Positions 30,437 to 42,965 of a stretch of DNA of 64,000 nt are shown here, one piece after another. Each line of letters starts with the position of its first letter. Position 1 is the first letter of the stretch. The notes under the pieces are model-generated. The model did no database searches. It was not told where the DNA came from and saw nothing but the letters and a program-made list of their open reading frames with translations. Origin of the DNA: Bradyrhizobium sp. CB82 (GTDB taxonomy: Bacteria > Pseudomonadota > Alphaproteobacteria > Rhizobiales > Xanthobacteraceae); contig NZ_CP121650.1 of assembly GCF_029714405.1 (NCBI RefSeq), forward strand, positions 8,809,001 through 8,873,000, written 5' to 3'. Made by a program: the position numbers and the translations under genes.

Positions 30437-31491
30437 CCGCGCAGATGCGCATCGCCGTTGCCGGCGCCGGCCTGATCGGCCGCCGCCACATCGAGCTGAT
30501 CGACGCCTCGCCGGACTGCGTGCTTGCGGGGATTGCCGATCCGTCGCCGGCGGCCAAGGAGTTTGCCGAAGCGCGCAACACACCCTGGCACGCCGATCAC
30601 CGCGCGCTGCTGGTGCAGGAAAAGCCGGACGGGCTGATCATCGCCTCGCCGAATGCGCTGCATCTCCAGATGGCGCTCGATTGCGCGGCCGCAGAAACGC
30701 CGGCGCTGATCGAGAAGCCGGTGACCGACACGGTCGCCGCCGCCCAGCGACTCTGTACCGCGATCAAACGCACCGGCGTGCCGATGCTGGTCGGTCATCA
30801 CCGCCGGCATAATCCGATCATCAAAGCGGCGCGCGAGACGGTGGCGAACGGCAGGCTCGGCCAGCTCACCGCCGTGGCCGGGTTATGGCTGCTGAGGAAG
30901 CCCGACGAATATTTCGAGACCGCCTGGCGGCGCGAAGTGGGCGGCGGACCTCTCCTGATCAATCTCATTCACGACATCGATAATCTCCGCTTCATCTGCG
31001 GCGAGATCGTCGAGGTGCAGGCGCTGACCTCGAACAAGGTCCGCGGCTTCGCGGTCGAGGACACCGCCGCGCTGCTGCTGCGATTCGCCAATGGCGCGTT
31101 GGGCACGGTGACGGTGTCCGATGCAACGCCCGCACCGTGGAGCTGGGAGCTGACCTCGGGCGAGAACGCGGTCTATCCCAGGCAAGACCAGCCTTGCTAC
31201 ATCTTTGCCGGCACCAGCTGCTCGCTGTCGGTGCCGTATATGGAACTGTGGTCCTATCCGCAAAATCCCACCTGGCATGCGCCGCTCCTTCGCGAGGCCG
31301 TCGCACTTTCCGCCTACGATCCGCTCGCCGAGCAGCTCCGGCATTTCCTTAGCCTGATCGCGGGCCGCGAGAAGCCGCTGATTTCGGTTGACGATGCGAT
31401 GGGCACGCTCGCGGTCGTCGAGGCCGTCAGCGAGGCCGCGCGCACGGGACACAAAATATCGCCGGGCCGGATCATGGAGCAGACAGTATGA
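30433..31491 (+). CDS. Gfo/Idh/MocA-family oxidoreductase
   Basis: NAD(P)-dependent dehydrogenase of 352 residues. The Rossmann motif AVAGAGLIGRRH is near the N-terminus, the family lysine is in ALIEKPVTD, and GGGPLLINLIHDIDNLRF holds the conserved histidine and aspartate. It is coupled to the dehydratase gene by an ATGA overlap, so it probably oxidises a shikimate- or quinate-like cyclic polyol; the substrate is inferred from context only. Confidence 0.87.
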   Translation: MTAQMRIAVAGAGLIGRRHIELIDASPDCVLAGIADPSPAAKEFAEARNTPWHADHRALLVQEKPDGLIIASPNALHLQMALDCAAAETPALIEKPVTDTVAAAQRLCTAIKRTGVPMLVGHHRRHNPIIKAARETVANGRLGQLTAVAGLWLLRKPDEYFETAWRREVGGGPLLINLIHDIDNLRFICGEIVEVQALTSNKVRGFAVEDTAALLLRFANGALGTVTVSDATPAPWSWELTSGENAVYPRQDQPCYIFAGTSCSLSVPYMELWSYPQNPTWHAPLLREAVALSAYDPLAEQLRHFLSLIAGREKPLISVDDAMGTLAVVEAVSEAARTGHKISPGRIMEQTV

Positions 31492-33359
31492 ACCAACGCT
31501 CGATCGCAACGGTCTCTCTCTCAGGTGCGCTGGATGAAAAGCTCCGCGCTATCGCGTCGGCCGGCTTCGATGCCGTCGAGATCTTCGAGAACGACCTGTT
31601 GTCGTTCGGCGCAAGCCCGCGCGAGGTGGCGCGCCTCTGCAAGGATCTCAACCTCGAAATCTGCGCCTTCCAGCCGTTCCGCGATTTCGAGGGCATGCCG
31701 GAGCCGCAGCGCACGCGCAACTTTGCCCGCGCCGAGCGCAAGTTCGATTTGATGCAGGAGCTCGGCACCGACCTCCTCCTGATATGCAGCAACGTCTCGC
31801 CGGCTTCGCTGGGCGGCATCGACCGCGCCGCCGACGATTTCCGCGCGCTCGGCGATCGCGCTGCAAAACGTTCTCTACGCGTCGGCTACGAGGCGCTGGC
31901 CTGGGGACGCCACGTCAACGACTACCGCGATGCCTGGGAGATCGTGCGCCGCGCCGACCATCCGGCGATCGGCGTCATCCTCGACAGCTTTCACGCGCTG
32001 GCGCCGGGCTTTCCAACGCGCGCGATGGCCTCGATCCCCGGCGACAAGATCTTTCTGGTGCAGCTTGCCGATGCGCCGAGACTCGAGCTCGACATCCTCT
32101 CCTGGAGCCGGCACTTCCGCTCCTTCCCCGGCCAGGGCGATCTGCCGGTCGGCGAATTCATGGAAGCGATCGCGGCGACCGGCTATGCCGGGCCACTGTC
32201 ACTCGAAATCTTCAACGACCAGTTCCGCGCCGGCTCCGCTGCACAGACGGCGACCGACGGCCTGCGCTCGCTCATTCTGTTGCAGGACCAGCTCGCGGCA
32301 GAATGGCCGAAGCTCGCAGACAAGCGGCTCGCCCCTAAGGCGAAGAGCCGTGGCACCGGTTTCGTCGAGTTCGCCGTCAACGAGACCAAGGCGGCCGAGC
32401 TTGCCGGCTTATTCTCGCAGCTCGGCTTCCGCAAGACCGGCAAGCACCGCAGCAAGGCAGTGGAGCGCTGGACGCAAGGCAAGGTGGAGCTCGTGATCAA
32501 CTGCGAGACCGGCGGCTTTGCGCATTCCCACTATGTCACGCACGGCCCCGGCGTCTGCGCCATCGCGCTCGACGTCGACGATTCCAGCCGCGCCATGGCG
32601 CGCGCTGAAGCCCTGAAGGCTCGCACCTTCTATCAGCCCGTCGGCCCGGGCGAGCTGGAGATCCCCGCCATTCACGGCGTCGGCGGCAGCCTGCTCTATT
32701 TCCTCGACCAGGCCGGCAAGAACTGGGACACCGATTTCGAGCTGGTCGCAAGCAACGCCGGCGCCGATCAGCTTCTCGCGGTCGACCACATCGCGCAGTC
32801 GATGCCCTATGACGAGATGCTGTCGTGGCTGTTGTTCTATACCGGCATCCTCGATCTGACCCGCCTGCCGCAGATGGAGATCGCGGACCCCCGCGGCCTC
32901 GTGCAGAGCCAGGCGATCATCAATGGCGACCAGAGCCTGCGCTTCGTGCTCAACGGCTCCTCAGCCAACCGCACGTTGCCGGCGCGCTTCATCTCGGAGT
33001 TCTTTGGCTCGGGCGTGCAGCATATCGCCTTCTCCTGCCGGGACATCTTTGCGACGGTGGCCGCCATGCGCAAGCGCGGCGCGGAGTTTCTGGCAATCCC
33101 CGACAATTATTACGACGACATCGAAGCCAAATACGATCTCGCGCCCGAGGTGATGGCGCAACTTCGCGAGAACCAGATCCTCTACGACCGCGAGGACGAT
33201 AGCGAGTTCTTCCAGGTCTATACGCACATCTTCGACGAACGCTTCTTCTTCGAGATCGTCGAGCGCCGCAACTATCAGGGTTTTGGCGCAGCGAATGCGG
33301 CGATCCGCCTCGCCGCCCAGGCCCGCGAGGTGCGCCCGGCAAGCATGCCACGGATCTGA
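31488..33359 (+). CDS. quiC: Two-domain 3-dehydroshikimate dehydratase (QuiC1 type)
   Basis: Converts 3-dehydroshikimate to protocatechuate. Residues about 1-285 form a sugar-isomerase-like metal-dependent TIM barrel (IATVSLSGALDEKLRAIASAGFDAVEIFENDLL, split here as start region; then GVILDSFHALAPGF). Residues about 290-623 form a 4-hydroxyphenylpyruvate-dioxygenase-like domain that retains the metal triad H434 (AVDHIAQS), H512 (VQHIAFSC) and E589 (FFFEIVERRNYQGFG). The 623-residue length matches fused QuiC1 proteins. It is coupled to the preceding oxidoreductase. Confidence 0.88.
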   Translation: MNQRSIATVSLSGALDEKLRAIASAGFDAVEIFENDLLSFGASPREVARLCKDLNLEICAFQPFRDFEGMPEPQRTRNFARAERKFDLMQELGTDLLLICSNVSPASLGGIDRAADDFRALGDRAAKRSLRVGYEALAWGRHVNDYRDAWEIVRRADHPAIGVILDSFHALAPGFPTRAMASIPGDKIFLVQLADAPRLELDILSWSRHFRSFPGQGDLPVGEFMEAIAATGYAGPLSLEIFNDQFRAGSAAQTATDGLRSLILLQDQLAAEWPKLADKRLAPKAKSRGTGFVEFAVNETKAAELAGLFSQLGFRKTGKHRSKAVERWTQGKVELVINCETGGFAHSHYVTHGPGVCAIALDVDDSSRAMARAEALKARTFYQPVGPGELEIPAIHGVGGSLLYFLDQAGKNWDTDFELVASNAGADQLLAVDHIAQSMPYDEMLSWLLFYTGILDLTRLPQMEIADPRGLVQSQAIINGDQSLRFVLNGSSANRTLPARFISEFFGSGVQHIAFSCRDIFATVAAMRKRGAEFLAIPDNYYDDIEAKYDLAPEVMAQLRENQILYDREDDSEFFQVYTHIFDERFFFEIVERRNYQGFGAANAAIRLAAQAREVRPASMPRI

Positions 33360-33444
33360 GCGGATGCAACACGTTTGGCGGCGTCTGATGGGACAGCGGC
33401 CAAGCGCTGACTCGTACCGGGCTGCCGACGATCTTCAGCAGGCC

Positions 33445-33612
33445 TCAGCGCGGCATTCCACTCTCGATCAGATAGATTTCCTGGAGGTTCGATAGCTCGA
33501 CCGAACGAAGCCGCGCATTCTCCTCAAGAACCCGCAGAACTTCATCTGGCGGCGATTCATCGTCGTCAAACTCTTCCCGAAGCAGTGGCGACAAGAATCC
33601 GAGGCGCATCAT
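33445..33612 (-). CDS. Hypothetical small acidic protein
   Basis: A 55-residue frame MMRLGFLSPLLREEFDDDE... with a leucine-rich helix (DEVLRVLEENARLRSVELSN). It lies in the 590-base gap after the dehydratase gene. A second frame upstream (33566-33682, MTSDYLPRSEKRE...) overlaps its start in another phase, so the two may be parts of one frameshifted gene. No family recognised. The rest of the gap shows nothing else. Confidence 0.35.
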   Translation of the reverse strand: MMRLGFLSPLLREEFDDDESPPDEVLRVLEENARLRSVELSNLQEIYLIESGMPR

Positions 33613-33950
33613 TGGACATGGCATTGTCTGCGGTTGAAATGATCTCCCGCTTCTCGCTGCGCGGCAAATAGTCGCTAGTCATGGCAAATCCCCACAACAC
33701 GCCCCCAACCGGATTCGAAGGAATTCCACCAAGGCGCCAGCGGATTTGAGTCCGAACTCGCACCAGCGCAAGGTCTTGCGAAACGCCGATTGAATCAATC
33801 TTCGCGTGATCTGATGGATGATGCGCAACCTCTGATCTGAAAAACGCTTAATGAGCGCTTAATGCTTTTGCGCAACTAATGGATCACCAGCGCGAAAGTA
33901 CGTTTTAGTCAGAGTGCAAGCCGAGCTCCGCCCCCAAGGAGGCGAATCGG

Positions 33951-34535
33951 ATGGGACTGCTTTTCATTGGCGTGCTGGCCGGAATCTTGATCGGCTTTGG
34001 CTTCTTTGCTCCCTCCCAGGGTTACTTCCTGGGCTGCGGCTCGCAACCCTGTTTTGACAGAGTCGCAATGGCTCACCCGCCCGCAGCGAAGCCTGCTGCC
34101 CTCGGGCCGGAGCCCTTGATTGCAAAAGCGAGTCCTTCGATCGCGGCAAGATCGGCCGAAAGACCATCGGAGAAGAAGCGCGGCAACATCAATCTGGCCA
34201 AGGCATCGCCTCCGGCAACACGGATCCACGTCCCGCCATCCAATTCCGCCGCGGAAGTTTCTGACTCCATATTGAATAAGGCAAAGGCTTCGATCGCAGC
34301 AAAGATGGAGGATCCCAACTCTGTCGAATTCAGCGATATGAAGCGGGCCATCAGGAAGAATACATTGGGACGTTCCGTGGATACCATTTGCGGGCGCGTC
34401 AAAGGGAAAAATGCCTCGGGCGAGGAGACCGGAGAAAGGCCCTTTCTCTATCTCGTGAAGGAGAACGATGCCTACGTTGTCAACGGACCGGCAAGCTCGG
34501 CAGCGGCGATCGCTTATCGCAACATCTGCAACTAA
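33951..34535 (+). CDS. Exported or membrane-anchored protein of unknown function
   Basis: A 194-residue protein. The N-terminus is a membrane or signal segment (MGLLFIGVLAGILIGFGFF), followed by a proline/alanine-rich linker (about 40-100) and a compact C-terminal domain with SIAAKMEDPNSVEFSDMKRA, CGRVKGKNASGE and PFLYLVKENDAYVV. AAGGAGG lies 8 bases before the ATG. The C-terminal domain looks like a small conserved rhizobial domain of unknown function. Confidence 0.78.
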   Translation: MGLLFIGVLAGILIGFGFFAPSQGYFLGCGSQPCFDRVAMAHPPAAKPAALGPEPLIAKASPSIAARSAERPSEKKRGNINLAKASPPATRIHVPPSNSAAEVSDSILNKAKASIAAKMEDPNSVEFSDMKRAIRKNTLGRSVDTICGRVKGKNASGEETGERPFLYLVKENDAYVVNGPASSAAAIAYRNICN

Positions 34536-34801
34536 AACGGAGGTGGATGCGAACCAAAGGTCGCAGAGACATGCGCGCGATCGAAGACCGGAGTGCGATC
34601 GCGACATCGGGTACGCGATCGTGCGATGAATTGCGTGGAAAGAATTTCCTGGCAACTGAACTGACAGCTGCGCCCCCGGCCCAGGGATGCGCAGACGGGA
34701 CCGCAAGATGGAATTGAAGCATCGGTTTTCCGATGCGCAATGCGCTGCGGTCGCGGAATTGGTGAGGTGGACTTACAGAGTTCTTTGCATTCGAGGATAA
34801 T

Positions 34802-35578
34802 ATGCACGATCAGGTTCATTCCGCTGAACGGCTCAACGAATCCCTGCAATTGCCCGTTCTGCTGCTCATCGAGCCGCTCACGCTCACACGCACGAGCATT
34901 CTGAGCATTCTCAGGCGCGAACTGGCGTCACTCGAGATCGTCGACATGGCGACCACCCAAGGACTGGATAGCGTGTCCGCACGCGACGTTCGTCTGGTCG
35001 CGCTGAGCATCGGGGACAAGCCGCCCGACGATGGCATCGTCGAGGACGATCTTGCGCTGATCGCGGAGTGCTGCCTGAATGCCTCCATCGCCCTCATCTC
35101 CAATCGTGATGACGAGGCTACCGCACTGGCCGCAATGCAGCGAGGTGTGCGTGGTTTCTTCCCCACCTCGCTTCCCATCGAAGTCGCTGTTGCCGGTCTG
35201 CGCCTTGTTCTGGCCGGAGGGGTTTACCGGCCACTGCCGGTCATCGAGTTGAGCAAGGCACCCGGGCTCGACCAGCCATATCCTCGCGCACTTGGATCAG
35301 CGTACTCGAATGGCGACAGAAGCGCGACCGACAGGACTACGACCGATTTCACACCTCGCGAGCAGCAAGTGCTGACGGAACTGGAGCTTGGTCTGCCAAA
35401 CAAATTAATTGCCGCCAAGCTGAACCTTTCCGAAAACACCGTCAAAATGCACATTCAGCACATCATGCGAAAATGCGACGCACGCAACCGGACCGAGGCG
35501 GTTCTGCGCTGGAGCGGTCGATTGTCGGCACACGGTCGCGACACCGACACGAACGCGTCTTCGATTCCCGAGGCATAG
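34802..35578 (+). CDS. LuxR/NarL-type regulator with a degenerate receiver domain
   Basis: A 258-residue two-domain regulator. The C-terminus is a clear LuxR HTH (FTPREQQVLTELELGLPNKLIAAKLNLSENTVKMHIQHI, residues about 184-222). The N-terminal part has the receiver fold, but the acidic pair is replaced by LIEPL, the phospho-acceptor position reads RLVALSIGD, and the conserved lysine region reads GFFPTS. It is therefore probably not controlled by phosphorylation. It converges with the type I secretion cluster and is a candidate regulator of it. Confidence 0.85.
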   Translation: MHDQVHSAERLNESLQLPVLLLIEPLTLTRTSILSILRRELASLEIVDMATTQGLDSVSARDVRLVALSIGDKPPDDGIVEDDLALIAECCLNASIALISNRDDEATALAAMQRGVRGFFPTSLPIEVAVAGLRLVLAGGVYRPLPVIELSKAPGLDQPYPRALGSAYSNGDRSATDRTTTDFTPREQQVLTELELGLPNKLIAAKLNLSENTVKMHIQHIMRKCDARNRTEAVLRWSGRLSAHGRDTDTNASSIPEA

Positions 35579-35595
35579 AAGCAACCACGCGACAC

Positions 35596-37017
35596 TCAAT
35601 CTTCGCGGAACGCGCCATGGAAACTGTCGAGCAGCGGCCTTAGCGCGTAAAGCGCGACGGTGCCGCGCCCTGTCGTGATGAAAACCTGAACCGGCATCCC
35701 CGGAATGATCTGGATATCGTTTGCGGCAATCTGCGCGTCGTCGACGCGAATTTTCGTCGCGTAGTATGGCTGGTCGGTGCGCTTGTCGAGAAGCCGGTCG
35801 GCCGACACGTGTGTCACGATACCCTTCAGCCGCGGCACACGACGCTGATTGTACGGGAGGAGATGGACCTCAGCATTCAAGCCGGGATGAACCACGTCGA
35901 TGTCCTCTGGCCTCAGGCGCGCGGTGACAATCAGGCGATCCTGCCGAGGCACCAGATCCATGAGTGGAGCAGCCGCTCCGATCACGCCTCCCGGCGTGTG
36001 AACCCGAAGGTCGGTCACTACGCCGTCCTCGGGCGCTTTGATCTCTGTTCGCGACAATTGATCCTGGGCCGCCGGCAACCGCTCGCGGAGCTGGAATATC
36101 TGGTTCTGCGCTTCACGCAACGCCTGTGCGATCTCGTTTTGCCTGTCGCTCTCCAGCTTGATCAAGTTCGCCTGCGATTCACCGATCACTTGCCCGGCAC
36201 GTGAGATTTGCGCGGCGATCTCGCCCCGACGCCCCTCAATGTCGGCCAGTTCCCGTTGAAGGTTCAATAGGCGCGGTCGCCGCTCGAGACCCTTGCTGAC
36301 GAGGGTGGCGACCATGTCGAGTTCCTCCCGGGCGATGTCGATGCGCTGCGCGACGGCGGCCTCTTGGGCCTTGAGGCCCTCGATCTCCTTCTCGACCTGC
36401 CCCCTCCTCTCTCGAAGGACCGTCACCTGCGATTGAAACACCTTCCGCCTCGACAAAAAGACGGTCTGCTGCGTCGACAGAATGGTGGCGGCGGCCAGGT
36501 TCGCGCTGGCCGCCCGCTCCAGCGTCTCCGAAAACGAGAGCTTCTCATATCCCCGCTGCTCGGCATCAAGCCGAGCTTCACGTGCCATTGCATCCCACAA
36601 CTGGCCTTGAAGGCTTTGCACCTCGGCGCGAGCCCTGGTGTCGTCCAGCGCGATCAAGGTCTGGCCACTGCGTACGAGGTCACCGTCCGAAACCAGAATC
36701 CTCCCAACGATGCCACCCTCCAGATGTTGAATCGTCTTGCGGCTCGACTCCGATTCCACGACGCCGGAAGCGATCGCCGCGCTCTCCAGAGGCGCAAGGC
36801 TCGACCACGTGCCCAGCCCCAGCATGAAGCAGAGCACGAGCAGATTGCCTGCGAGCGTCACACCGCGGAGTCTCGTGCGTGGCGAGATCGGCGTCGGAGC
36901 CGTGCACCATGGAAACTCGAGGGGTTCGTAATCGTCGATTGCGGTAATCTCGATACCGAGCCGTCGCCCGGTGGGTGGGGTGCTCAGCGGCGCGCGCGTT
37001 TCCTGTTTCCAGATCAT
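35596..37017 (-). CDS. HlyD-family membrane fusion protein of a type I secretion system
   Basis: Periplasmic adaptor linking the ABC exporter to an outer-membrane channel. 473 residues: cytoplasmic N-terminus, one membrane segment (about 53-75), biotinyl-lipoyl-like domain (ESSRKTIQHLEGGIVGRILVSDGD in the range 89-112), a long coiled coil (about 125-315), then the second lipoyl half (TEIKAPEDGVVTDLRVHTPGGVI) and a beta-barrel domain. Its ATG overlaps the stop of the exporter gene by 4 bases. No TolC-type gene is present in the window. Confidence 0.92.
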   Translation of the reverse strand: MIWKQETRAPLSTPPTGRRLGIEITAIDDYEPLEFPWCTAPTPISPRTRLRGVTLAGNLLVLCFMLGLGTWSSLAPLESAAIASGVVESESSRKTIQHLEGGIVGRILVSDGDLVRSGQTLIALDDTRARAEVQSLQGQLWDAMAREARLDAEQRGYEKLSFSETLERAASANLAAATILSTQQTVFLSRRKVFQSQVTVLRERRGQVEKEIEGLKAQEAAVAQRIDIAREELDMVATLVSKGLERRPRLLNLQRELADIEGRRGEIAAQISRAGQVIGESQANLIKLESDRQNEIAQALREAQNQIFQLRERLPAAQDQLSRTEIKAPEDGVVTDLRVHTPGGVIGAAAPLMDLVPRQDRLIVTARLRPEDIDVVHPGLNAEVHLLPYNQRRVPRLKGIVTHVSADRLLDKRTDQPYYATKIRVDDAQIAANDIQIIPGMPVQVFITTGRGTVALYALRPLLDSFHGAFRED

Positions 37018-38801
37018 GGGCGAACCGGCTGTCCCGGCACCTTGGCGGTTGAGGGCGCGATCTCGGCTGGCGCGGATTGCGATATCACCTGGGGCCTGCT
37101 CAGATGCCGCTCGAACATTTCCTCGCTTTCGCCGAACGCGACGACCGCGCCGCCATCCATGATGGCGATCTTGTCCGTGGCTCCGAGAATACCCATTCGG
37201 TGAGTGACGACGACCACCATGACATTGGCGATCTTCAATTGCTCGATGGCGTCCAGCAGCATCCGCTCCCCAGCGTAGTCGAGGCTGGCGTTCGGCTCGT
37301 CGAGAACGACGAGGCGTGGGTTGCGGAAAAAGGCCCGAGCAAGTCCGAGGCGCTGGCGATATCCCCGAGAAAAGGCCACGCCCCCACTTGGAACCACGGT
37401 GTGGTAAGCTTGCGGCAGCCGCATGATCGCGTCATGTATGCCGACGAGCTTGGCGGTCTCGACGATCTCCCGTGGATCGGCATCATCAAGCCGCGCAATG
37501 ATCTCGTTTATCGTTTCGCCAAAGAGATTGATGTCTTGCGGCAGGTATCCGAGGTGGCGAGCGCCTCGCCCCTCGCGGAGCAGCGATACGTCTGCATTGT
37601 CGAGCAGGACGCGACCGTGCGTCGGAATCGTAAGTCCGGCGATGACCTGGCCAAGCAGCGACTTGCCCGAGCCGGACGGACCGATGATGCCAAGGCATTC
37701 GCCGGGCGCGAGACTGAAGGCGAGGCCCTTCAACAGAAAGTTGTTGGACCCGGGCAGCTTCAGGCTGACGTTATCGACGACGAGGCCGCTCCGCGGCCGC
37801 TGGGATGAGAATTCTGTAATCACTTCCGCGGCGGGAATTGCGACGAGCACGGCGTCGAGTCGCCGATAGGCTTTCATGGCCGCCGCGAGTGATTTCCAGC
37901 TTGCAATCGCACCCTCGACCGGTGCGATGGCACGGCCAGACATCAGTGTCGCCACAAAAATGATAGCGGGGCTCTTGCCGTAGTCGAGCACGAGCCACGC
38001 TGCCGCTCCCATGATCACGACCTGCGACAGCGCACGTAACGGCTTGGTCGCAAACATGACGAGCGCGTACCGCGACAGGGCAACGTCGTGCTCTCTGCGC
38101 GCTTCTTGCGCGTCGTTGTATATCAGGCGCGCCGTGCCATTCACCATTCCCATTGCGCGGATCAAGTGAATATTGCCGATCGCAGCGGCAAGCCGCCCGT
38201 AGCTCTTGGACAACGCGGCGCCGGCCTTGACCGTAGCATCGTCCGTGAGCAGGTCGCCTGCAAGCGTGAGGCCGAACATCAGAGCCACGCTGCAGGCCGC
38301 CACGACCCCAAGCAACGGATGAACAAGAAAAAGGACACAGAGAAAGAGGGGCGTCCAGAGCGCATCGAACAGCAGCGGGCATGCGCTGGATTCGACGAAC
38401 TGGCGCAGAGCCGTGAGATCCCGATATGTGTCCGGCGACTGAGGCCAATCGCTGCGGAAGGCGGATTCGAGGCACGCCGAAAGCACGGAAGGACGAAGTC
38501 GGTCTTCAACCCATGCGCCAAGGCGGCCCAATAGGACGCGGCGCAGTGCGTCAAGCACTCCACCGACGACGACCGTGACCGCGACGATGAGGGTGAGCAT
38601 CAGAAGCGTGTCGCCACTCCGGCTCGACAAGACCCGATCGTAGATCTGAAGAAGGTAGATGGAAGGCGCAAATAGCAGCAGATTGTAGCTGCAGCTATAC
38701 GCGAACACGAGACCAAGCGGGCCCGCGCAGGCCCAAAGCGCGGCCTCCAGCGGAGTCCGGGCAGGTGCCAGAAGCGGTGTTCGGAGGGACGGCATCAGCA
38801 T
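37014..38801 (-). CDS. Type I secretion ABC exporter (PrtD/AprD family)
   Basis: Inner-membrane ATPase-permease that exports unfolded substrate. 595 residues: a membrane domain (about 22-320) with LFAPSIYLLQIYDRVLSSRSGDTL, typical of PrtD, and an ATPase domain with Walker A GPSGSGKS, Walker B LVVLDEPNASLD and switch histidine VVTHR. The signature motif reads FSRGYRQRLGLARA instead of the usual SGGQRQ. The gene follows the small repeat-protein gene after a hairpin and precedes HlyD. Probable substrates are the two upstream glycine-rich proteins. Confidence 0.92.
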   Translation of the reverse strand: MLMPSLRTPLLAPARTPLEAALWACAGPLGLVFAYSCSYNLLLFAPSIYLLQIYDRVLSSRSGDTLLMLTLIVAVTVVVGGVLDALRRVLLGRLGAWVEDRLRPSVLSACLESAFRSDWPQSPDTYRDLTALRQFVESSACPLLFDALWTPLFLCVLFLVHPLLGVVAACSVALMFGLTLAGDLLTDDATVKAGAALSKSYGRLAAAIGNIHLIRAMGMVNGTARLIYNDAQEARREHDVALSRYALVMFATKPLRALSQVVIMGAAAWLVLDYGKSPAIIFVATLMSGRAIAPVEGAIASWKSLAAAMKAYRRLDAVLVAIPAAEVITEFSSQRPRSGLVVDNVSLKLPGSNNFLLKGLAFSLAPGECLGIIGPSGSGKSLLGQVIAGLTIPTHGRVLLDNADVSLLREGRGARHLGYLPQDINLFGETINEIIARLDDADPREIVETAKLVGIHDAIMRLPQAYHTVVPSGGVAFSRGYRQRLGLARAFFRNPRLVVLDEPNASLDYAGERMLLDAIEQLKIANVMVVVVTHRMGILGATDKIAIMDGGAVVAFGESEEMFERHLSRPQVISQSAPAEIAPSTAKVPGQPVRP

Positions 38802-38884
38802 TTCTCGTCACCGCCGGAGATTGGGTTTGGCCCTTACGGCTGCCCGTCGATCGAACGTGACGACGAACCATTGGCTGCAAATCC

Positions 38885-38912
38885 GGGACCGGCGGCACGC
38901 GCCGCCGGTCCC
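38885..38912 (-). other. Strong hairpin between secreted-protein gene and exporter gene
   Basis: Perfect 12-bp stem (GGGACCGGCGGC / GCCGCCGGTCCC) with a 4-base loop, 22 bases after the stop of the small repeat protein. No T-run follows. It could lower read-through so that the substrate is made in excess over the exporter, or protect the upstream mRNA. Confidence 0.65.
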
Positions 38913-38933
38913 CGCCACGCGACGAGCAGCTGG

Positions 38934-39392
38934 TCAGAGCACGTCGAAGTGGAAGTCCACCTCTCCGCCCAAAGCGGCATTGCCGCTTCCGCCGTTGCCA
39001 CCGATACCGGCCGCCACGTCCTGGTGCTGGTCCACCCAGAGTTTGTTGATCTGAGTGGCATCCGTATTCGCGTAGACCTTGGAGGTATCGTAGCCGCTGT
39101 CCGAACTCTGGCTTCCGTTCGACGTTGCGGTTCCGCCATGGGCTTTTGCAAACCATGAAGCGGTTGCGTTCGCGCCGCCGGCGTCCCAGTCCGCAGTTTG
39201 CTTGACGTGATCACCGGTGTTGACGTGCACGTCGGCACCTTCCGCCTTGTTGGTTGGGTCGAAGGTGAGCGTCGGCTTGTTGATGATGGCTCCCTTGAAA
39301 GTACCGTCACCGCCGTTGCCTACGCTTTGACCGCCGGTGTCGATCGATTTGAATCCGATCGAATCTGAAATGTGGATCGCTTTGGGCAACAT
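38934..39392 (-). CDS. Small glycine-rich repeat protein, likely type I secreted
   Basis: A 152-residue protein without a Sec signal peptide. It contains one degenerate copy of the repeat found four times in the larger neighbour: NGGDGTFKGAIINKP...TFDPTN near the start and INKLWVDQHQDVAAGIGGNGGSGNAALGG near the end. The C-terminus is VDFHFDVL, an acidic-hydrophobic tail of the kind seen in PrtD-type substrates. GGGAGG is 5 bases before the ATG. It is directly upstream of the exporter. Function unknown; surface or biofilm role is a guess. Confidence 0.82.
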   Translation of the reverse strand: MLPKAIHISDSIGFKSIDTGGQSVGNGGDGTFKGAIINKPTLTFDPTNKAEGADVHVNTGDHVKQTADWDAGGANATASWFAKAHGGTATSNGSQSSDSGYDTSKVYANTDATQINKLWVDQHQDVAAGIGGNGGSGNAALGGEVDFHFDVL

Positions 39393-39639
39393 TTGAGCCT
39401 CCCTGCGTTTGTTGACTTACACGCATCATCCATCCCGATCAGACGGACACGCTCGGCAACTCTGATCCCCGCAGCCTTGACGGCGATAGATGTCAAATTG
39501 GACACCATCCGCTTTGGTGGGCCTACGCACGAAAGTATGGCCTCCGTGATGACGTCTTGACGTTGCAGACATCGGGGTGCGTCAAAATGCTGGCCTGCGC
39601 GGCGCATCGAGAGGGCCGGCCTCGTTGCGATCGGCTAAA

Positions 39640-39739
39640 GCATGATCCGGAAAAGTGCGACGCGGTTTTCCGGAAAGATCATGCGCAAACAAGAACCTAA
39701 AGCGCGATGACGTTTCGTCCTAATCTCATCGCGCTTTAG
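39640..39739. repeat. Composite palindromic repeat, copy 2
   Basis: Most complete copy: GCATGATCCGGAAAAGTGCG...TTTTCCGGAAAGATCATGC (hairpin 1), linker GCAAACAAGAACCT, then AAAGCGCGATGA...TCTCATCGCGCTTT (hairpin 2). It fills the gap between the two repeat-protein genes. The remaining 240 bases of this gap (39393-39639) show no gene. Confidence 0.88.
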
Positions 39740-39744
39740 TCTCG

Positions 39745-41133
39745 CTACGCCATCAAGTGGAGATCTGACAAAAAATGCGTGGCAAGATCGCCGCCCAGCG
39801 CGAGATTGCCATGACCGCCGTCGCCGCCCACTCCGGCGATCTGGACCGCGCTCTGGTCGATGTGCACGTCGTTGGTCTGACCTGCCACCGCCGTCGAATG
39901 CGGGCCGGCGATTGCGATATTGATGGGAGCATAGATCGCGACGCTGACATCGATCAGGCTCCCCGAAACGTGGCCGCTCCCGCCGTTGCCCGTTCCATTT
40001 GCTCCGGTCGCGATCGCGTCGGAGCCGCCCCACAGGCCATGGGAGATAAGGCTTCCGCTGCCGCCCGCCGCAATGTTGCCGTTGCCGCCATATCCTCCGA
40101 TGCCGGCTATCTGTAGGGCGGATTGATCCACATACACGCTGTTGGTCTGAATCGCGTAAGCACTGGAATTGTAACCCGCGACCGCGATGTTGATCGGGTC
40201 GTACAGCACGAAGGACGTATGTACGAGTTCTCCATGAAAGGAGCCGTCTCCGCCATTGGCGGCCTGGCTGCCACCCGTCTCGACCAGATGCCAGGCACTT
40301 GCGCCGTTGCTTGATCCCCAGGCGGGATCGAGCGTGATGACGCTGCCGCCACTGGCGACGTTGCCGCTTCCTCCGTTCCCGCCAACACCTGCGACCTGGA
40401 CGACCGACTGATTGAGATCGACCGCATTCGACTGACCTGCGTACGCGTTGCCGCCTTGGCCCGCCAGCGCAATATTGACCGGATGGTAGATCACGACGGG
40501 AGCGTCCACCAACGCGCCGGAGAAATAGCCCGCGCCCCCATTGCCGCCACCGCTGCCGCCAGTCGCGACCACAGCGGAGCCGGCGGAGGCTCCGCCGACG
40601 CTGCCTCCCGACGCGAGATTGCCGTTGCCGCCATCTCCCCCGACGCCCGCTATCTGAAAGGCGGATTGATCGACATTCACGTCGTTGGTTTGCTGGGCCA
40701 GGGCAACGGAGCCGTATCCGACGGACACCGATATGTTGATCGGCTCATAGATCAGCATGGAGGCATGAACGATGCCTCCATAGAAATGGCCGTCTCCGCC
40801 ATTGCCGGCCGCGCTGTCTCCGCTCTGGATCGAACCCGGCCCTGGATTGCCCGATCCGGTTCCGATTCCAGCCGATGGAGTGGCGTGGCGGACACTATCG
40901 GGCTCGGAAGACACGGCGTCGTGCCGACTCGTGTTTCCAATGGGAGAGTGCGTCTCCTGACCCGCAAACCACAGCCGGCCATGGGCGCCAGCTCCATCAT
41001 CTCCAGAAATCGGCCTGGAGGAAGGTGCAGAGTCCCTCGAGGCGAAAGCGAACCTGTCATTGCCATCATCGTCAACGTGATGGTGGTCTCGATGAAGCGG
41101 CACGATCGCGTCCGACGGGTACCGGAAATTCAT
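39745..41133 (-). CDS. Large glycine-rich protein with four 85-95-residue repeats, likely type I secreted
   Basis: A 462-residue protein. Residues 1-108 are polar and histidine/aspartate-rich (HRDHHHVDDDGND). Four repeats begin near residues 110, 197, 292 and 382. Each reads about NGGxGxFxGxLV, then IYxPINIAVAG, then AxAxQTNxVxVDQSAxQIAG, then VGGxGGNGNxAxGGS. There is no Sec signal and no classical RTX nonapeptide. GGGAGG is 4 bases before the ATG. The pattern suggests a beta-solenoid-like surface protein. Same strand and order as the exporter genes, so probably a substrate. Confidence 0.85.
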   Translation of the reverse strand: MNFRYPSDAIVPLHRDHHHVDDDGNDRFAFASRDSAPSSRPISGDDGAGAHGRLWFAGQETHSPIGNTSRHDAVSSEPDSVRHATPSAGIGTGSGNPGPGSIQSGDSAAGNGGDGHFYGGIVHASMLIYEPINISVSVGYGSVALAQQTNDVNVDQSAFQIAGVGGDGGNGNLASGGSVGGASAGSAVVATGGSGGGNGGAGYFSGALVDAPVVIYHPVNIALAGQGGNAYAGQSNAVDLNQSVVQVAGVGGNGGSGNVASGGSVITLDPAWGSSNGASAWHLVETGGSQAANGGDGSFHGELVHTSFVLYDPINIAVAGYNSSAYAIQTNSVYVDQSALQIAGIGGYGGNGNIAAGGSGSLISHGLWGGSDAIATGANGTGNGGSGHVSGSLIDVSVAIYAPINIAIAGPHSTAVAGQTNDVHIDQSAVQIAGVGGDGGHGNLALGGDLATHFLSDLHLMA

Positions 41134-41490
41134 GTCGCCTCCCTCGCCGCAATTGGACGGGCCCCTCTCCCCGACGTCGAGGAGTGTCAGCCGCGGAAGG
41201 TCAAAAGCCGAGTCGTCAATTCGAGTGCAGCGTTTCGAATGGAGGGCGTCAGATCGTCTACGCCCGTTTGTAGCGGACAGCCTTCACGAGAGGCCGTATC
41301 GACCACGCGATGCGGGTGTAACTCGTCACCTCGCCCCGCTTACGGCGAGAGGTCGCAATTCGCGCGCGGCGGGCATTGCGGGTGAGAGGACTCTCCGCGA
41401 ATCCGTCTCTTAATCTTTATCGTGGAGACACCCCCTCACGCCGCCCCTCACCCCGTAGGAACGGGGAGAGGGAGAGGAGAGAGCCGGATA
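41134..41490. other. Intergenic region upstream of the large repeat-protein gene
   Basis: About 357 bases with no convincing gene; it must hold the promoter of the repeat-protein gene. Near 41450-41470 the short hairpin CCCCGT-AGGA-ACGGGG lies after the stop of the solute-binding-protein gene and may act as its 3' end. Confidence 0.5.
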
Positions 41491-42663
41491 TCACTTCATC
41501 GGGCACTTGTCGTGGAAGCGGTCCTGGTCGTCCTTGAGGATGGTGGCGACCGTCTTCAGCGCAAGCTGGCCGTCCGCGTCCTTCACCACGTCCTGGAGAT
41601 AGAAGTTCTGGATCGGGATGTGGTTGTTGCCGTACTTGAACGAGCCGCGCAGCGACTTGAAGTTGGCCTTCTCCATCTCGGCCTTCATCGCGTCCTTCTT
41701 GCTGGTGTCGCCCTTCACCGCAACGACCGCGCTGTTGATGAGCTGGGCCGCATCGTAGGCTTGCGCGCCGTAATAGGTCGGTCGCAGGTTGGTGTACTTC
41801 TTGCGGTAGTCGGTGACGAAGCGCTTGTTCTCGTCGTTGGGGAGGTCGTTGACCCATTCCTGCGCGCCGGGAATGCCCAGCGCATTCTCCTTCTGGAGCG
41901 GCAGCGACAGCTCGTCAACGGTGAACACCGTATAGAGCGGGATCTGGGTTTTCATGCCCGCCTGGACGTATTGATTGAGGAACTGCACGCCGGCAGCACC
42001 CGGATAGAATACGAAGATCGACTCGGCGCCTGACGCGCGGGCCTTCGACAGCTCGGCGGAGAAATCGAGCTGGCTCGGCCAGACGGTATATTCCTCGCCC
42101 TTGATCTCGCCCTTGAAGGTGCTCTTGACGCCCGCGAGCATGTCCTTGCCCGCGGCGTAGTTCGGCCCGATCAGAAAGACGCTCTTGACGCCCTTCTGAT
42201 TCATGTACTGACCCATCGCCTGCGGCGTCTGGTCGTTCTGCCAGGAGGTCGAGAACACGTAAGGCGAGCAGAGCTCGCCGGCGAGCTGCGACGGGCCGGC
42301 ATTGGCCGAGATCAGGAAGGTCTGCGAATCCACCGCGGTCTTGAGCGAGGCGAGCAGCACGTTCGACCAGATGTAGCCGACGATGAAATCGACCCTGTCG
42401 GACTGCACCAGCTTCTCGGTCTTCTGTTTGCCGACGTCGGGCTTCTGCTGGTCATCCTCGTAGATCACCTCGACCGGCTTGCCGGCCATCTTGCGGCCGA
42501 GATGGTCGAGCGCGAGCTCGAAAGAGTTGCGCATGTCGTTGCCGATGACAGCGGTCGGGCCGCTGAAGGTCGAGACGAAGCCGATCTTGATGGTGTCGCC
42601 AGCCGATGCCGGGCTTGCCAGCACCAGCGCAGCCGCGCCCGCCAGCCAGAATGCCGTCCTCAT
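41491..42663 (-). CDS. Branched-chain-amino-acid-type ABC substrate-binding protein
   Basis: Periplasmic binding protein of the HAAT class, 390 residues. A Sec signal (MRTAFWLAGAAALVLASPASA) precedes DTIKIGFVSTFSGPTAVIGNDMRNSF, the usual start of the family, and the fold continues to the end. The start at 42663 has GAGGAGGGGAG upstream. No permease or ATPase is adjacent, so it is an orphan; it could serve the liv-type operon at 21871-25207, which lacks a binding protein, or another system. Relatives often bind aromatic acids. Confidence 0.88.
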   Translation of the reverse strand: MRTAFWLAGAAALVLASPASAGDTIKIGFVSTFSGPTAVIGNDMRNSFELALDHLGRKMAGKPVEVIYEDDQQKPDVGKQKTEKLVQSDRVDFIVGYIWSNVLLASLKTAVDSQTFLISANAGPSQLAGELCSPYVFSTSWQNDQTPQAMGQYMNQKGVKSVFLIGPNYAAGKDMLAGVKSTFKGEIKGEEYTVWPSQLDFSAELSKARASGAESIFVFYPGAAGVQFLNQYVQAGMKTQIPLYTVFTVDELSLPLQKENALGIPGAQEWVNDLPNDENKRFVTDYRKKYTNLRPTYYGAQAYDAAQLINSAVVAVKGDTSKKDAMKAEMEKANFKSLRGSFKYGNNHIPIQNFYLQDVVKDADGQLALKTVATILKDDQDRFHDKCPMK

Positions 42664-42965
42664 AACCACTCCCCTCCTCATTTTCCTTGCCCCGAAATGG
42701 CGGATGGCCCGCTTCCGGATCATTCTGTTTAGGACGCAAAATCGTGTGAACCGTCAATGGCTCAGCGCACTCCTGCACCATAATTCTCCCCTATCCCCGA
42801 TGGCAAGAAATATAGTTCTACGCACTTTGGCGAGGGCCGCGGCGGATGTTCGCGCCTCCTGCGATATGCCGTCGCTATTTCATCAATTGATGACGGCTAT
42901 TGGACCAACACCCCGTCTTCGCTCTTAAATGAGTGGCGCACACCCAGCGAATCGAGGCCGCATTC
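42664..42965. other. Divergent intergenic region
   Basis: About 300 bases between the binding-protein gene (minus) and the NDH-2-type gene (plus); must hold both promoters. I see no clear operator, no paired TGCA site and no small gene. Confidence 0.5.

Follow-up and report, generated by a model that had tools for sequence, protein, structure and literature searches.

In Rhizobium leguminosarum, the PrsDE type I secretion system (T1SS) exports attachment and nodulation proteins (PMC2275737), and repeats-in-toxin (RTX) bacteriocins are known in rhizobia, including Bradyrhizobium elkanii (PMC3034196). RTX proteins carry a secretion signal of roughly 60 residues (PMC3034196) and follow a C-terminal end rule of [FLI][VAI] (PMC8861453). 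A stretch of 64,000 nucleotides of Bradyrhizobium sp. CB82 (NZ_CP121650.1, positions 8,809,001 to 8,873,000; hereafter the window) contains a cluster in which two glycine-rich repeat proteins of a different kind, here named BIG and SMALL, are encoded beside a PrtD-like transporter, an HlyD-family adaptor, a LuxR-family regulator and a 194-residue protein. We consider it probable that this cluster is a self-contained mobile secretion cassette with a dedicated exporter, of which BIG and SMALL would be the extracellular beta-repeat substrates.

All four open reading frames (ORFs) of the cluster as originally predicted were recovered in place on the minus strand, in the order large repeat protein, small repeat protein, ATP-binding cassette (ABC) exporter and HlyD. 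BIG (39745..41133; called from its ORF and by repeat comparison) is a glycine-rich protein of 462 residues with four units and the conserved tail GGDLATHFLSDLHLMA. SMALL (38934..39392; called from its ORF and with a hidden Markov model (HMM) of the unit) has 152 residues with a single diverged unit split by an insertion, and ends in GGEVDFHFDVL. These genes are followed by a PrtD-like type I secretion ABC permease/ATPase of 595 residues with the degenerate signature FSRGY (37014..38801; TIGR01842) and by an HlyD-family membrane fusion protein of 473 residues (35596..37017; TIGR01843), the last two genes sharing a 4-base overlap. Convergent with this operon, on the plus strand, lies the gene of a LuxR-family (GerE) regulator with a receiver-like N-terminus (34802..35578; PF00196, E = 3.7e-18). 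The 194-residue protein (33951..34535, plus strand), recognised by synteny, is of no recognised family and has an apparent N-terminal membrane segment as judged by eye.

The original prediction had staked its case on the repeat proteins travelling with T1SS genes, and this is what was found. In a survey of 195 sampled genomes of the genus that covered BIG, SMALL, PrtD and LuxR (E cut-offs of 1e-5, 1e-6, 1e-135 and 1e-40, respectively), SMALL, this type of PrtD and this LuxR occurred in one identical set of 67 genomes, with one such PrtD per genome; BIG occurred in 68, namely the same 67 and one more (G471). BIG and SMALL were separated by 160-1,381 bases in the 67 genomes, and SMALL and PrtD by 91-362 bases in 66 of them, the remaining one (G366) having a contig break between the two genes. 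The gap between PrtD and LuxR was 1,434-3,089 bases, enough room for HlyD. One stop codon was counted inside the matched stretch in many of the 67 PrtD matches. A contig scan of a second collection gave 48 loci, 46 from Bradyrhizobium and two from Microvirga. The order BIG, SMALL, PrtD, HlyD, convergent LuxR and 194-residue gene was kept in 45 of the 46 Bradyrhizobium loci, the exception (L007) being a contig that stops after SMALL; in L024, HlyD was matched as two pieces. In both Microvirga loci the genes lie together but are rearranged, with BIG divergent from the row SMALL-PrtD-HlyD; a LuxR gene of 27-31% identity lies nearby, and the PrtD gene of one of them (L050) appears to be divided into two frames. 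An order-level sample gave matches in 4 of 297 genomes, of which three belong to the genus and one to another family, and a class-level sample in 1 of 385, the own genome only, so that the family looks narrow, comprising Bradyrhizobium and Microvirga-like genomes.

The additional genome with BIG, G471, holds a remnant of the gene (L094 7933-9140) that lacks the last unit and whose frame is disturbed, and searches of that genome for SMALL, this PrtD and this LuxR found none. To judge from its sequence, the remnant is a substrate gene in apparent decay where the exporter is absent. This bears on the alternative that BIG and SMALL are not exported, that the exporter serves some other protein and that the linkage reflects hitch-hiking on a mobile element. 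Such an alternative can draw on the shortness of the C-terminal tails, but it has to be set against the strict co-occurrence and adjacency, which extend over 67 genomes (one split over two contigs), two plasmids and a second genus, against the break of BIG in the one genome where the exporter was not found, and against the fact that the sole other candidate substrate in the cassette, the 194-residue protein, was not found in Microvirga. We regard hitch-hiking as highly improbable, whereas export of BIG and SMALL by the dedicated exporter, taken as a claim of its own, appears very likely from the genomic data.

The unit, which includes the LuxR and 194-residue genes, is by its sequence context a movable cassette of 8.1 kb; neither its mobility nor the membership of these two genes was part of the original prediction. 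Its approximate extent (33354..41420) was derived by alignment to six cassette-free sites, in which homology ends at 33349-33353 and resumes at 41421-41491. The flanking genes encode a substrate-binding protein (41491-42723) and a 623-residue protein (31488-33359). Among 126 genomes with the 623-residue gene, 90 had the closest copies (at least 88% identity), and 82 remained after eight had been dropped because the flank partner was not on the same contig or not within 20 kb. The two flank genes were 48-1,444 bases apart in 80 of these 82 genomes, of which 28 carried the cassette at another site and 52 lacked it, among the latter G471, whose remnant lies elsewhere; 8.1 kb apart with the cassette in between, they were found only in the window genome and one other. 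The 28 cassette-bearing genomes with adjoining flank genes (L099, L100, L102, L103 and 24 more) are natural controls. When flank groups were defined by two shared ORFs at 60% identity, there were 27 upstream (49 loci) and 37 downstream (48 loci), both numbers being inflated by rearranged loci and by loci with short contig ends. Of 51 loci in total, these counts exclude the two from Microvirga, and the downstream part is missing in L007. Two copies of the cassette are on plasmids typed as conjugative, both from Acmispon root-nodule isolates. The G+C content at third codon positions was 0.65-0.75 in the six cassette genes vs. 0.84-0.89 in the two right-hand neighbours. No terminal repeats beyond 8-9-base matches were found at the cassette borders, no tRNA gene in the window, and none of the six cassette genes matched a transposase or an integrase.

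The patchy, movable and exporter-linked occurrence, the plasmids typed as conjugative and the extra small conserved gene would also suit a mobile antibacterial, bacteriocin-like cassette in which BIG and/or SMALL hit competitors and the 194-residue membrane protein possibly confers immunity, and the RTX bacteriocins of rhizobia mentioned above point the same way. In Pfam and NCBIfam, however, the window proteins matched neither a toxin nor an enzyme domain, one face of the predicted strands described below is conserved throughout the family rather than diversified as expected of toxin/immunity pairs, and the 194-residue gene, syntenic in Bradyrhizobium (45 of 46 loci) and on both plasmids, was not found in the two Microvirga loci. 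This explanation is considered decidedly unlikely. The nodule origin of both plasmid copies, together with a genus of legume symbionts and the attachment and nodulation proteins exported by PrsDE, would fit another alternative, in which BIG and SMALL serve attachment or nodulation as host- or root-interaction proteins like the rhizobial T1SS substrates NodO, the Rap adhesins and glycanases, and not a general matrix. The cassette is nevertheless present in just 67 of the 195 genus genomes, the annotation of the two plasmid stretches examined includes no symbiosis gene, and no cadherin-like, RTX or enzyme domain was matched in Pfam or NCBIfam, so that a host-directed role is regarded as quite unlikely.

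The claim of four repeats in the 462-residue protein held up on closer analysis. The units, of 82-95 residues, start at residues 109, 196, 291 and 381 (spacing 87, 95 and 90, with 82 residues from the last start to the end), and their 76-residue cores are pairwise 55-66% identical over the aligned part, with z of 23-29 (300 shuffles each). The N-terminal 104 residues of BIG are not a unit (z of at most 1.9). Tandem Repeats Finder detected no array at the DNA level, indicating that the units are old and diverged. SMALL compared with each BIG unit gave z of about 11, in agreement with the one diverged unit first ascribed to it; an added detail is that this unit is interrupted by an insertion, as indicated by the unit HMM matching in two separate pieces in 112 of 120 SMALL homologs (the best 120 of 618). 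In the SMALL proteins of Microvirga (L050 8576-9373, L051 8637-9428), a long low-complexity insert of Gly-Tyr-Gly-Gly type lies inside the interrupted unit. The full-length start of BIG is backed by an N-terminus conserved among 20 aligned relatives, two shorter gene calls excepted, which indicates that the public gene call (P0007, 337 residues, 39745-40758), beginning at residue 126 within the first unit, is truncated.

The absence of a Sec signal and of RTX nonapeptides, on which the original prediction had relied, was likewise supported. Neither BIG nor SMALL contains the RTX motif GGxGxD or the calcium nonapeptide GGxGxDxUx, and neither has a hydrophobic N-terminal stretch, the highest 11-residue Kyte-Doolittle mean within the first 45 residues being 0.35 and 0.60 for the two repeat proteins. 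Both are free of cysteine, and BIG also of lysine; among the matches listed, cysteine was absent from 183 of 199 homologs in the BIG searches (a set pooled from the listed matches of two such searches) and from 118 of 120 SMALL homologs, and lysine from 86 of the 199 BIG relatives. As for the family looking new, this stands in that BIG and SMALL belong to no Pfam or NCBIfam family (the sole Pfam match of SMALL, E = 0.86, lies under its cut-off) and that no description of these genes was recognised in the literature, as judged by titles and abstract openings and with subscription papers outside the coverage. It does not stand in so far as databases hold hundreds of homologs, at least 780 from the BIG search and at least 618 from the SMALL search, some of them automatically named PE-PGRS. 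The homolog figures rest on the best 120 of 780, 618 and 614 matches, and in two of the searches scoring was confined to the 7,993 candidates with most words in common. All organisms named in the listed matches of the first BIG and SMALL searches were Bradyrhizobium. Pfam matches in 70 BIG relatives (five families, matched by 14, 11, 9, 4 and 1 of the relatives) were judged likely to be composition matches and are lacking in the window BIG; DUF4774 (PF15999), for instance, matched 11 of the 70 with a best E of 2.7e-5 and did not match the window BIG at E up to 1.

Each BIG unit contains two 19-residue stretches in which conservation alternates residue by residue among the 70 relatives. In the second of these, strand B (e.g., residues 144-162), the conserved positions read A-A-Q-N-V-V-Q-A-Q-A and those between them are variable; with the four units pooled, mean entropy was 0.44 vs. 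1.37 bits, and 0 of 20,000 permutations were as extreme. Strand A (e.g., residues 117-135) gave 0.42 vs. 0.93, likewise pooled, with 1 of 20,000 permutations as extreme. Of all windows of 19 residues from residue 105 onwards, the 12 that differ most in parity begin at residues 140-144, 216, 227-230, 295 and 297, which places them in strand B (units 1 and 2), the strand A-B stretch (unit 2) and strand A (unit 3). To all appearances, each unit thus has two long beta strands, of which one face is buried, and a GGxGGxGN loop after them. AlphaFold placed strands roughly where the conservation pattern does, at a low confidence on account of which no fold is claimed. FapC and CsgA ranked top in a fold search with BIG (E of 1.3 and 2.3; TM-scores of 0.04-0.14), were insignificant and were not used as evidence.

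The exporter of the window is itself divergent, a point not made in the original prediction, and differs from the other PrtDs of the same genome. TIGR01842 was the best of 189 NCBIfam matches to the window PrtD (residues 30-564), with a score of 499.5 bits that lies below the curated cut-off of 510.15; its best PDB match was 5l22 (E = 1.7e-95). HlyD scored 385.2 bits with TIGR01843, well over the cut-off of 208.65. Walker A, Walker B, the Q-loop and the H-loop of PrtD look normal, and the ABC signature reads [FL][SP]RG[YF] in all 45 Bradyrhizobium PrtDs of this type that were read and LLLG[HQ] in both from Microvirga. If PrtD, encoded by a single gene, works as a homodimer, the degenerate signature would be present on both ATP sites. 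With TIGR01842, two further PrtDs of the genome reach 732 and 693 bits; their signatures are LSAGQ and LSGGY, and LSGGQ-like motifs are also present in seven other ABC proteins. A second PrtD/HlyD pair adjoins an ORF of at least 2331 codons (L091 8887-15882), which perhaps encodes a giant T1SS adhesin. The presence of two stronger PrtDs, one of them beside this ORF, indicates that the window exporter is additional to them.

A candidate export signal was found at the C-terminal ends. Counting only proteins with the GGxGGxxN pattern, and with residue classes chosen after inspection, the last unit closes with [LMFWI]GG[DEN] in 162 of 181 BIG ends and in 102 of 116 SMALL matches, vs. 108 of 624 internal BIG positions. 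Among the matches listed, this motif is followed by 13-16 residues in 176 of 199 BIG proteins and by 8-10 residues in 102 of 120 SMALL proteins; the final residue of BIG is A in 101 and G in 66 of the 199, and that of SMALL is I, L, F or V in 106 of the best 120 of 618. In kind, these short C-termini likely fit a T1SS signal.

We propose that PrtD, as ABC pump, and HlyD, as periplasmic adaptor, would form a dedicated type I exporter, with a TolC-type channel probably encoded elsewhere. BIG and SMALL would be its own non-RTX substrates, synthesised in the cytosol without a Sec signal, exported unfolded and recognised by their short C-terminal ends, i.e., [L/M/F]GG[D/E/N] and about 8-16 further residues. 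Outside the cell, each unit would fold into two strands of roughly 19 residues with a conserved Ala/Gln/Asn/Val face, and the stacked units would make up a structural or adhesive beta-sheet protein of the cell surface or matrix, with SMALL as minor component or nucleator and the cassette presumably controlled by the receiver-like LuxR regulator. Of the possible extracellular roles, a structural or adhesive one is slightly favoured. Amyloid in the strict sense, to which the alternating-strand pattern points, is considered unlikely, and the same grade of doubt applies to a transferable biofilm-fibre kit in which a diverged T1SS would export an amyloid-like main subunit (BIG) and a nucleator (SMALL) under its own LuxR switch.

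Several points weigh against the cassette being such a secretion unit for beta-repeat substrates. Besides the inflated flank-group numbers, the genomes counted are not independent of each other phylogenetically. A more distant copy of the 623-residue gene (65-85% identity) was present in 36 genomes; among the 19 of these in which the flank pair could be checked, none had it adjacent (in 11 the two genes were widely separated on one contig and in 8 they were on different contigs; in the other 17, the partner was not among the matches listed or none reached the cut-off), so that the empty-site argument covers part of the genus. The strand regions were picked with the motif in view, the 12 best parity windows are confined to units 1-3, and single units gave weaker p values, of 0.0006-0.039 for strand B (below 0.05 in all four units) and of 0.006, 0.047, 0.065 and 0.078 for strand A (in two of the four). 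The AlphaFold models were poor, with a mean predicted local distance difference test score of 43.9 and 43.6 (alignments of 70 BIG and 53 SMALL sequences), and the PDB fold search of BIG gave no match at E of 0.001 or less; a profile search of the PDB with ten BIG relatives yielded no match at E up to 1. There is no TolC gene among the six cassette genes, no genome-wide search having been made. Finally, the ends of BIG deviate from the [FLI][VAI] rule (PMC8861453) and the tails of both proteins are shorter than the RTX signal (PMC3034196).

The LuxR protein carries a GerE domain (PF00196), and its N-terminal half is receiver-like without a Pfam receiver match. In the consensus of 49 LuxR tblastn matches, the usual phospho-acceptor Asp is not at its expected position as judged by eye, suggesting that the regulator may act independently of phosphorylation. 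The gap between BIG and SMALL holds two inverted repeats (39640..39739), one of which is a dispersed palindromic repeat of the genome; its 20-base core had 66 genome matches at up to one mismatch vs. 0 for the reversed control. The neighbouring inverted repeat (39681-39739) matches L004 17678-17736, which is the opposite end of the cassette in that locus. Promoter and terminator scans gave counts no higher than the shuffle level.

A secretion cassette found at differing sites and on plasmids, and carried by a third of the genomes sampled from a genus central to agriculture, comes with its own natural controls in the empty-site strains. As a single-copy T1SS with two defined non-RTX candidate substrates, it makes T1SS recognition without RTX repeats testable with a protein of 152 residues. 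If the repeats form fibres, the cassette would represent a new secretion route for functional amyloid; the fibre kit, if true, would place this route beside the curli and Fap channels and have it spread horizontally among soil and nodule bacteria.

Compared with known systems, the cassette resembles the PrtD/PrtE (PrsD/PrsE) T1SS of rhizobia and Erwinia in combining an ABC permease/ATPase and an HlyD adaptor with adjacent candidate substrates that lack Sec signals, but differs in the sub-cut-off TIGR01842 score of its PrtD, in FSRGY in place of LSGGQ and in its non-RTX repeat partners. With RTX proteins, BIG and SMALL share glycine-rich, acidic and cysteine-poor repeats adjoining T1SS genes, whereas the calcium nonapeptide is missing and the unit is one of 82-95 residues with alternating strands. 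The PE-PGRS proteins of mycobacteria, after which some homologs are automatically named, are alike in their Gly-rich composition and have a different unit and different secretion genes. This naming was rejected; no PE or PGRS match was obtained in Pfam or NCBIfam, and the name seems to be an artefact of composition. Curli CsgA and Fap FapC offer a further comparison. The repeats of curlin and FapC form Gln/Asn/Ala ladders, and those of BIG are similarly imperfect, with Gln, Asn, Ala and Gly conserved at alternating positions; the N-x5-Q spacing of curlin is also similar, in a repeat about a quarter as long as the window unit. No Pfam curlin match was found at E up to 1 in the window BIG, in SMALL or in the 70 BIG-family members, and curli and Fap are exported through CsgG and FapF rather than by a T1SS. 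The regulator of curli, CsgD, is, as here, a receiver-like LuxR protein, and acts without phosphorylation.

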